From Planctomycetota bacterium (GTDB lineage Bacteria > Planctomycetota > Planctomycetia > Pirellulales > Thermoguttaceae): a stretch of 64,000 bases of DNA. The DNA lies in the NCBI GenBank assembly GCA_029550925.1, contig JAKPGL010000120.1, positions 1 through 64,000 of the forward strand, given 5' to 3'. Positions 13,890 to 16,892 of this stretch are shown here, piece by piece. Positions within the stretch are counted from its first letter, which is position 1, and each line of letters opens with the position of its first letter. The notes beneath the pieces are model-generated. The model saw only the letters and a program-made list of their open reading frames with translations. It was not told the DNA's origin and did no database searches. A program made the translations under genes and the position numbers.

Positions 13890-14930
13890 TTACCGTCCAT
13901 TGTAATCTCGATATTGGCGCCAGGTATCGAGCATGGCCAGGAAGTTTTCCGGTCGGACGGAAGAATGGATGCTGTTGGAGCTAGAAAGGATATAGCCGCC
14001 GCCGGGCTTGGCCTTTTCAATGGTTTCGCGGGTTACCCGACGGACCTCTTCGACCGGGGCCTGCGAGAGCAGATAGCCGCAGTCGATATTGCCCACCAGA
14101 CACACCCGATCGCCGTATTTTTCCTTAATCAGTCCGATGTCCATACCGGCCACCGGTTCCAATGGGTTCAGACCATCGATACCGGTCTCGATAATCATGT
14201 CGAGAATGCCCATGATATTGCCGTCGGTGTGTTTGATCACGTAGGCCCCGGCCTCATGGGCGGCATCCACGCACCGTTTCAGGCCGGGGAGGATAAACTC
14301 CTTGAAATGTTTGGGCGACATGAGCGTAGCGTTTTTATCGGCGTAATCGTCGCCAAAGACCACCACATCGACTCCCTCCTTAATCATCCGCTGCATGGCC
14401 GGGATGTCGTAGCTTAAGGTTACTTCAATCAGCTCGTGGACGAACTTGGGCCGGTCGATCATGTCCATCAAAAACTGGGTGGTCCCTCGAAGGAAAGCCG
14501 GGTTGAAGAAGGCGTCGCGGCAGACGGCGCTTATCGCCTTTTTCCCCTTGTACCGGGCGACCAGTTCCGGGATGCCTTCGATGACATCCGGGGCGTTGGG
14601 ATCGGGCGGCTGGTAGCGTTTTAAATCATCCGGGTGTTTGATGGGGCCTTCGACCGGGGCCGGGGTGCTTTCCGGCCCGAAAGCCCGAATCACCCCCCAT
14701 TTGTCCCGGAACAAGCCCCGCTTTTCGTCGATGATTTCCACATTGTCCCGCCGCCAGGAGCTACGGTTAAAACCCACATTGTCCATTTCGATCCATTCGT
14801 TGAACTCCCAGTAGGTGCAGCCGGGCCGAATGGCCTGCATCACCCGCTCGTCGATCACACACTCAAAATACGGCACCCGGTCAGGGATTCGACGTTCTAA
14901 AGCAGCGATGATTCTTTCTCGGCTTGTCAT
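13890..14930 (-). CDS. Uroporphyrinogen decarboxylase-family protein (possible corrinoid methyltransferase-like)
   Basis: MTSRERIIAALERRIPDRVPYFE..., AHEAGAYVIKHTDGNIMGILDMIIETGIDGLNPLEPVAGMDIGLIKEKYGDRVCLVGNID. Confidence 0.88.
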   Translation of the reverse strand: MTSRERIIAALERRIPDRVPYFECVIDERVMQAIRPGCTYWEFNEWIEMDNVGFNRSSWRRDNVEIIDEKRGLFRDKWGVIRAFGPESTPAPVEGPIKHPDDLKRYQPPDPNAPDVIEGIPELVARYKGKKAISAVCRDAFFNPAFLRGTTQFLMDMIDRPKFVHELIEVTLSYDIPAMQRMIKEGVDVVVFGDDYADKNATLMSPKHFKEFILPGLKRCVDAAHEAGAYVIKHTDGNIMGILDMIIETGIDGLNPLEPVAGMDIGLIKEKYGDRVCLVGNIDCGYLLSQAPVEEVRRVTRETIEKAKPGGGYILSSSNSIHSSVRPENFLAMLDTWRQYRDYNGR

Positions 14931-15151
14931 TTGGTTAACTCCGAAAGGATAAGGAAATTGAGGTTTGCCTATGGTCGGTTATTTTGGAATTTCGCGCCTT
15001 TTCGCCTCCTCTGACCTCTTGAGATTTCCGAGTTGGTGGAAAAGGTGGCACGTGTAGAAGCAATAAAGCGAAAAAGGGGATTGGTCTGAAGTTTTCATTA
15101 TAAATCCTTCTGGAGGTGGTACAAAAGGGAGGGGGTAAACAGACTGGATTG

Positions 15152-15499
15152 TAGCCCGGTCTGGCCAGGCTGAGCAATCCGCGACCTCGACTGTCTAGCC
15201 TGAGTCGCCGGCTAAACAGCCGACGCTACAGGTCGCCGGCTAAACAGCGGGCGTTACGTAACTTAGCCTGTCCAGGCTGAGTAGCTTAGGCTGTCTAGCC
15301 TGAGCCCAGACGCCGCCTAAACAGGCGACGTTACGTAGCTTGGGCTGTCTAGCCTGAGTCGCCCGCTAAACAGCGGGCGTTACGTAGCTTAGCCTGTCCA
15401 GGCTGAGTAGCTTAGGCTGTCTAGCCTGAGTCGCCCGCTAAACAGCGGGCGTTACAGGACGCCGGCTAAACAGCCGACGTTACCGGCTAACAGCCGACG
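15152..15499. repeat. Composite array of two alternating palindromic hairpin families
   Basis: Family B (CGCCSSCT-AAAC-AGSSGRCG type): 15206-15225, 15234-15253, 15311-15330, 15360-15379, 15432-15451, 15460-15479, and degenerate 15483-15499. Family A (AGCCTGTCCAGGCT / AGGCTGTCTAGCCT) lies between them. Larger A'-A-B units repeat. Confidence 0.9.
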
Positions 15500-16142
15500 T
15501 TACGGACACACGGTGCGACACACAAACGAGGGCATGTGGAAGAAAACCACCAGAGTTTATCTCCGGAAGAGGGGAACCGCTTCTAGCGGCCCGCGGCACT
15601 CTGAGACCATCCATCGCCCAAAGCCCGGCAAAGAAGCGGCGAATCCGCTGCCGTCGGCTGTTCTCTTGGGCGGCCGGGCGCTTCTTTGAATGGTTGGAAA
15701 ATAGATTCTTTTTTGAACATTATGTTCATTTGAATATATCACGATCCTGGGCTGCTAGCAGTGCTAGCACACAAAATATAGGAAATCCTTGCAACGACCG
15801 TCCAAGACGTTAAACTGCTTCCGTTTCCGCTTCTTGAGCGGGTTTCAGTTCGCCAGATGGAATAAAAAAGCTTGGGTTAACCAAGGAGGTTTTTCGAGAA
15901 GGATACGGAAGTTATCCCCGAACCGGGATCGGTTCCAGGATCCGGGCTGGTAGGGATGAGCCAGTCTGTTCGGGCCTGAGCAGGATTCTTTCAAAGGAGG
16001 CGCTCAGGAGTTTTTCCAGGGCGTCCAGGCTGTCTGATGCCTGTTAGTCCGCACTGTCTGGAATGGAGGCCGGTTGGGGTTCTTCGGTTTGGACAGGTCG
16101 TTTTTTCTTTTTCCCCACCCCATTGTTAAGGAGGGCAATCGT

Positions 16143-16892
16143 ATGGGAATGAAGCCATTGATCGGGTTGAATGCGGACTACCGCGCCGCCAAGGATGCCG
16201 CACCTGGTTACAGCTACTTGTGCACCGGCTACTATGACTGTCTGATCAAAGCAGGAGCGGTGCCGATCGTGCTGCCGCCGCTTGTGGATCGCAACGATAT
16301 GGCCCGCGTGTTGGACCTGCTGGACGGGCTGGTGTTTATCGGAGGCGCAGATTTGGATCCCCGCCGGGATGGGTTTATGCTCCATTCGAGCGTTCGGCCT
16401 ATGGATCGGCGTCGGGAGGAGTTTGACCGCAGCCTGATGAAAATGGCGACGGGCCGACGCATGCCTATCTTTGGCATCGGCGTTGGAATGCAACTGCTCA
16501 ACGTGGTGATGGGCGGAAACCTCTTTTTGCACATCCCTGAGGACCTACCCAAAGCCCTACCTCATTATGACGCAAGCGATCCGTACCACCGGCACGCCTT
16601 GGTGGTGGAACGGGGCTCGCTGATGGACCGGGTCTATGGCGAAGGGGAAATCCGGGTCAATAGTATGCATCACATGGCGATCGACGAAGTAGCTCCCGGA
16701 TTTGCCGTTACCGCCCGATGCCCGGATGGCGTCGTCGAAGCCATCGAAAGCACCTTGCCCGATTGGTTCGCCATCGGCGTGCAGTTCCATCCGGAAGCCC
16801 CCTCGGCCACCGCTCTGGACTTCCGAATCTTTGAAGAATTTGTAGAGGGCGTGGTCCGATTCCAAGCGGGATCCGTGCGGATGGTCGCTTAA
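16143..16892 (+). CDS. Peptidase C26 (gamma-glutamyl-gamma-aminobutyrate hydrolase-like) protein, catalytic Cys apparently absent
   Basis: MGMKPLIGLNADYR..., PIFGIGVGMQLLNVVMGGNLFLHIPED, NSMHHMAI, IGVQFHPEA. Start placed at 16143 inside the longer ORF. Confidence 0.87.
   Translation: MGMKPLIGLNADYRAAKDAAPGYSYLCTGYYDCLIKAGAVPIVLPPLVDRNDMARVLDLLDGLVFIGGADLDPRRDGFMLHSSVRPMDRRREEFDRSLMKMATGRRMPIFGIGVGMQLLNVVMGGNLFLHIPEDLPKALPHYDASDPYHRHALVVERGSLMDRVYGEGEIRVNSMHHMAIDEVAPGFAVTARCPDGVVEAIESTLPDWFAIGVQFHPEAPSATALDFRIFEEFVEGVVRFQAGSVRMVA

Follow-up and report, generated by a model that had tools for sequence, protein, structure and literature searches.

What is the array of short hairpins at positions ~15151-15503 of the planctomycete DNA analysed here, a 64,000-nucleotide stretch that we call the window, and what kind of process produced it? 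The array lies in 1.2 kb of DNA that separates two divergent genes, a UroD-family (PF01208) gene on the minus strand (13890-14930) and a peptidase C26/class-I glutamine amidotransferase gene on the plus strand (16143-16892), both of which point away from it. A first-pass annotation of this DNA had described two alternating palindrome families with compensatory stem changes, and had considered both a structured RNA under selection on the minus strand and an array of REP-like elements. All the hairpin copies that it quoted are indeed present and far above chance; the B pattern defined below has six exact copies in the window, against 0.09 expected from shuffles with 2 mismatches allowed. With a probability of roughly 0.7, we interpret the array as clustered REP elements of the GTAG type that are most likely non-autonomous mobile DNA, with a two-part unit of ~52 bp that would be served in trans by a RAYT-like enzyme.

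The array consists of tagged hairpins on both strands

Each hairpin carries a GTAA or GTAG tag directly 5' of an 8-bp stem that ends in CT/AG and encloses a GTYN loop. Read on the tagged strand, element A is GTAG-CTTAGCCT-GTCC-AGGCTGAG and element B is GTAA-CGCCCGCT-GTTT-AGCGGGCG. The inner two pairs of both stems are C-G and T-A and the loop is 4 nt long, often 3 in B, while the outer stems differ (CTTA/TGAG in A, CGCC/GGCG in B). A and B thus represent a single kind of element read from the two strands, and not the two families of the first-pass annotation. The stem of A, given there as 5 bp, is in fact the 8-bp CTTAGCCT/AGGCTGAG. The GTAR tetranucleotide that immediately precedes the stem, which in the window array lies on the plus strand in A and on the minus strand in B, had been missed.

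At its left end the array begins with a degenerate A element on the plus strand (15151-15174, GTAG CCCGGTCT GGCC AGGCTGAG), assigned from its sequence and from direct-repeat family D3. It is followed by two B elements on the minus strand, one with the tag GTAG (15206-15229, GTAG-CGTCGGCT-GTTT-AGCCGGCG) and one with the tag GTAA (15234-15257) which, as had been recognised, combines the arms of two variants with a single mismatched pair. The YTAC of this hybrid abuts the tag of a plus-strand A element (15258-15281, GTAA-CTTAGCCT-GTCC-AGGCTGAG), which has one G in common with the next A element on the same strand (15281-15304, GTAG-CTTAGGCT-GTCT-AGCCTGAG); the latter forms a head-to-head A-B unit with a minus-strand B element (15311-15334, GTAA-CGTCGCCT-GTTT-AGGCGGCG). 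Two complete 49-bp units, GTAG-A-T-B(inverted)-TTAC, are located on the plus strand at 15335-15383 and 15407-15455, and the plus-strand A element between them (15384-15407, GTAG-CTTAGCCT-GTCC-AGGCTGAG) abuts the first at a TTAC/GTAG junction. The array closes with two B elements on the minus strand, GTAA-CGTCGGCT-GTTT-AGCCGGCG at 15460-15483 and, at the right end, a copy with a 3-nt loop (GTT) and a partly decayed outer stem at 15481-15503. Between the A and B hairpins the gap is 1 nt in the two complete units and 6 nt in the third pair, 15281-15334.

Hybrid arms like those of the B copy at 15234-15257 were also found in A copies elsewhere in the genome (CTTAGGCT/AGGCTGAG and CTTAGCCT/AGCCTGAG), which suggests recombination between copies. 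The earlier view that the array is not a CRISPR holds: in place of near-identical repeats with unique spacers of constant length, we observed elements that vary, alternate in strand and are separated by 0-8 nt. A large G+C-rich hairpin (15621-15689, arms AAAGAAGCG.../...CGCTTCTTT) lies between the array and the peptidase C26 gene; its RNA fold z is only -1.4, and it is possibly a terminator-like element or a structured leader.

A and B form a strictly ordered unit in the sampled contigs

The source genome, assigned to the family Thermoguttaceae from its nearest named neighbours, is a draft of 4.9 Mb in 233 contigs (97.5% complete), and hairpins were counted in 1.18 Mb of it, on contigs picked for holding matches. 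A scan that ignored the tag detected 224 hairpins with a 4-nt loop in this sample, versus 8 in shuffled DNA, and GTAA or GTAG lay directly 5' of 193 of them. A looser search that scored the tag yielded 340 hairpins, versus 5 in the reversed-sequence control; the tags of the A elements (n=159) were GTAA in 73 and GTAG in 67, and those of the B elements (n=181) were GTAA in 128 and GTAG in 16. The genome-wide search for copies that the first-pass annotation had called for gave 242 copies of the A pattern at ≤3 mismatches (control 0), and the A hairpins are nearly identical across the genome; 38 copies of the B pattern were found (0 in the reversed control). Scaled by the A pattern, of which 149 of the 242 copies fall within the 1.18-Mb sample, the genome total is estimated at ~550 hairpins in many clusters. 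The earlier suggestion of a REP-like element array was right.

The arrangement of neighbouring hairpins in the 1.18-Mb sample follows a clear rule. Head-to-head neighbours are A-B in 106 of 106 cases and never A-A or B-B, with a gap of mostly 4-6 nt (mode 5 nt); tail-to-tail neighbours are A-B in 77 of 78 cases, and same-strand, head-to-tail neighbours are only A-A or B-B. At 65 of the 78 tail-to-tail junctions the distance is zero, so that consecutive units adjoin directly at their tags (YTAC|GTAR). The unit is accordingly GTAR - A - ~5 nt - B inverted - YTAC, ~52 bp in all, and as a single strand it folds into two separate hairpins (z -5.4). An inverse REP pair that recurs as a unit, with tandem copies, is the organisation of REPINs and BIMEs. 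Among 94 dimers 92 have distinct sequences, so no very recent burst is visible.

Comparison with known REP systems

REPINs, together with their RAYT, are reportedly inverted REP pairs that act as a unit dispersed between genes. The pairs reported here resemble REPINs in being inverted REP pairs dispersed as intergenic units, and differ from them in that the two halves are different sequences and no RAYT was detected in the genus. REPs are defined by a GTAG tag and a hairpin, often arranged as inverted pairs (PMC3733652, PMC8266576), and the GTAG-tagged superfamily comprises 24 families, some of them in the planctomycete R. baltica (PMC3733652). The present elements share with this superfamily the short hairpin with a tetranucleotide directly 5', the tolerance of G.T pairs, complementary stem variants, the intergenic location, hundreds of copies, and head-head and tail-tail dimers (PMC3733652). 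They are accordingly many-copy intergenic hairpins in the range of 20-40 nt with a 5' tetranucleotide on one strand, but GTAG is not the tag of most members. In contrast to the superfamily, GTAA exceeds GTAG here, with the degeneracy at the fourth position, the loop is GTYN and the pairing of two types is strict, as judged from the published descriptions (PMC3733652); the degenerate tags published for the superfamily vary at positions 2 and 3, not 4 (PMC3733652), and TnpA_REP of E. coli accepts no deviation from GTAG (PMC8266576).

A second comparison is provided by the BIME mosaics of E. coli, in which y REPs are combined with z1/z2 REPs (PMC8266576). As in BIMEs, two REP types are inverted relative to each other and tandemly repeated; unlike BIMEs, the unit here is minimal, with ~5 nt between the hairpins and tag-to-tag abutment, the hairpins lack a bulge, A is distinguished from B by its outer stem, and a RAYT was not detected (PMC8266576). 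The family is therefore set apart by the strictness of its pairing, its minimal unit and the absent enzyme, while two-type pairing as such has a precedent in the y/z REPs of E. coli (PMC8266576). It shares most of its DNA-readable features with RAYT-dependent REPs, but does not qualify as a RAYT-mobilised GTAG REP system on two points, a predominant GTAG tag and a cognate transposase.

Distribution in one genus

A search of 60 relatives found the A pattern in three species, all of a single genus, and nowhere else, and the dimer pattern with free outer-stem letters was confined to the same genus among 397 genomes of the order. A monomer model gave at least 170, at least 56 and at least 10 matches in the three species, and weak matches in seven other genomes, mainly G008 (21) and G037 (7), both of which have Y1 genes; these weak matches may be other GTAG REPs or distant relatives of this family. 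Viral contigs, plasmids and phages contained no match to the REP family, and a phage or plasmid origin was rejected on this basis.

At the window locus the two nearest species align across the UroD gene and downstream of it, but not across the array. We further compared 98 orthologous intergenic regions with those of the sister species G001. Thirteen of them carry REPs in the source genome, of which 10 are REP-free in G001 and 3 have REPs in both species, with different stems; 2 further regions have REPs in G001 only (Fisher p = 0.016 for the comparison of 98). The flanking intergenic DNA has diverged too far between the species for exact target sites to be defined, and the REP-free orthologous sites could also reflect losses in G001. 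At inner pairs 5-6, GT/AC occurs in 44 of 77 hairpins of G001 versus 20 of 340 in the source genome. This shift affects A and B alike, and the outer stem retains its A or B identity, although that of B is weaker in G001. Since the inner stems differ between the species, amplification or homogenisation of each set probably postdates their divergence.

Search for a mobilising enzyme

The movement of REPs is attributed to RAYT (TnpA_REP) transposases of the Y1 type. The search for such an enzyme, also called for by the first-pass annotation, detected none in the three REP-bearing species, all draft MAGs of 92-97.5% completeness: no match to the Y1 transposase PF01797 was obtained at E ≤ 10, and NF047646, the NCBIfam REP-transposase model, gave a single spurious 11-bit match, the RAYT candidate L091 on contig C170 of the source genome, which has no HUH motif. 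The cognate, REP-flanked Y1 gene that marks a RAYT-mobilised REP (REPtron) was thus not found in these draft genomes. Where a family could be assigned, ORFs between nearby REP clusters were housekeeping or pilin-like, and a 171-aa ORF tightly flanked by REPs is lipoprotein-like and not a RAYT. In three relatives (L080, L081 and L083) a Y1 gene is flanked on one or both sides by GTAG hairpins; these belong to other families (GTAG-CCAGGTGC-GCAA, GTAG-CCGTGGGTT-TT and GTAG-CCCCAACC-GTRA). Matches to the present family also occur near contig starts of the source genome (C78:22, C57:85, C16:137, C145:115 and C148:18), which suggests that the assembly breaks at REP arrays.

These observations bear on the best-surviving alternative, in which REP-like units are spread or homogenised by an enzyme other than a Y1/RAYT transposase, such as a different HUH nuclease or an activity of recombination or repair. 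All three REP-bearing species are without a detectable Y1 gene, whereas 47 of 60 relatives have one; the tag is GTAR and not GTAG; and the post-split amplification or homogenisation implied by the differing inner stems apparently proceeded without a RAYT. On the other hand, the architecture is that of RAYT substrates, and ten REP-flanked genes that were scanned included no candidate mobilising enzyme. Seven or more genomes elsewhere in the same bacterial family are Y1-less, so the absence alone is not unusual. A serious caveat is the draft state of the MAGs: several REP matches are located no more than a few hundred bases from where a contig begins, and all three assemblies could have missed a gene flanked by REPs. 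The loss of RAYTs is also documented elsewhere, as REPs occur in RAYT-less Pseudomonas strains and RAYT loss has been modelled as leaving REPs behind (PMC3686654). We consider a non-Y1 enzyme unlikely for these reasons. Slightly less likely again is that the family amplifies and stays homogeneous within species without a Y1/RAYT through a two-part hairpin code and a co-evolving recogniser; in such a code the genus-wide outer stem would label the ends as A or B, and the inner stem would shift jointly in both ends from species to species.

Genomic context of the clusters

When the hairpins with 4-nt loops are grouped into clusters, only 1 of the 60 falls within a called ORF, versus 84% of random positions, and the larger hairpin set has 3 clusters within called ORFs; the gene calls behind these context counts are crude longest-ORF calls. 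The clusters occupy tandem, divergent and convergent gaps according to the length that each type makes up, which equals the mix of the intergenic background. In tandem gaps, the A strand runs with versus against the genes 11 to 19, and clusters are closer to the upstream stop 20 to 10, neither of which is significant by our reckoning. The genes flanked by REPs include those for CTP synthase, adenylosuccinate lyase, Maf and a sigma factor.

The purely intergenic, clustered location and the near identity of the A hairpins would also be consistent with a primary host function, in which the elements serve as sites for a nucleoid, gyrase-like or mRNA-stabilising factor. Such roles have been attributed to E. 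coli REPs and BIMEs (PMC6006769, PMC8266576) and are compatible with a mobile origin. However, the elements do not clearly favour 3' ends, one gene orientation or one strand, and most sites are not common to the sister species, which makes host function as the first cause rather improbable.

The wobble-bearing strand follows the tag

The compensatory stem changes reported earlier were corroborated: 95.7% of cells pair, double-changed cells number 109 versus 44 in shuffles, and the covariation score is 0.51, versus 0.18 in shuffles (0/500) and ≤0.10 in slid controls. Further copies and covariation, whose joint lack the first-pass annotation had named as counting against it, are therefore both present. 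Its wobble argument, in contrast, was right for B only. On the tagged strand, G.T pairs outnumber C.A pairs 153 to 8 when A and B are pooled, and pair 3 is T.G in nearly all A elements and in a quarter of the 4-nt-loop B elements counted; for A this wobble lies on the plus strand. The tags of A and B are on opposite strands, so the strand with the wobbles is set by the tag and not by a transcript. No single minus-strand transcript accounts for this pattern, but it is explained if single-stranded DNA is recognised in a strand-specific way, as it is by REP transposases (RAYT/TnpA_REP); hairpin-templated repair or strand-specific DNA recognition explains the covariation as well as RNA does.

We therefore reject a structured RNA. 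A minus-strand leader of the UroD-family gene would draw on the G.U-compatible changes of the B hairpins on that strand and on the strong covariation, but it is very improbable given the plus-strand wobble of A in the same array, elements beside unrelated genes with no preferred orientation, a dimer that joins elements of opposite strands, and only sub-threshold Rfam matches, none of them credible. For the same reasons, we find no support for selection on a transcript that lies upstream of the UroD gene, and a cis-regulatory RNA or sRNA was discarded for want of a consistent strand relative to genes and of a known Rfam family. Equally hard to sustain is neutral tandem duplication with quasi-palindrome correction (hairpin-templated repair) and no tag-specific enzyme, which can yield compensatory changes without selection and fits the exact units in tandem arrays, but leaves the dispersal to ~60 sites in 1.18 Mb, the conserved unpaired tag and the exact tag-to-tag junctions unexplained.

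A model for the REP units and its implications

We base the reading as mobile REP units on the tag, the hairpins, the obligate A-B pairing, the tag abutment, the intergenic dispersal, the restriction to one genus and the 10 of 13 sites that are empty in the sister species. In the proposed model, the tagged strand would fold when the region is single-stranded during replication, and a RAYT-like HUH/Y1 transposase acting in trans would recognise the folded strand, cut at or beside the tag, and join or move whole units; tag-to-tag tandem arrays would be the product of such joining. The two different outer stems presumably mark the two ends and prevent one long perfect palindrome. The enzyme may have been lost after the expansion or, as several arrays lie near contig starts, may reside in unassembled DNA. 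Speaking against a RAYT-type system are the lack of a detected Y1 gene in the three REP-bearing species, the excess of GTAA over GTAG and the lack of a very recent burst. Our verdict is that these elements constitute a new REP family, an obligate heterodimer with a GTAR tag and no detectable mobiliser, which stands apart from the 24 published families by description.

One consequence is that a strand bias of the wobbles in an array of hairpins is not in itself a sign of RNA. Planctomycetota gain an abundant REP family whose mobile unit is unusually well defined, with two hairpins, a fixed order and exact tag-to-tag ends. With no cognate transposase found in them, the three REP-bearing draft genomes, one of which has hundreds of copies, would provide a test of whether REPs are able to persist, spread or evolve in concert when no RAYT is present.
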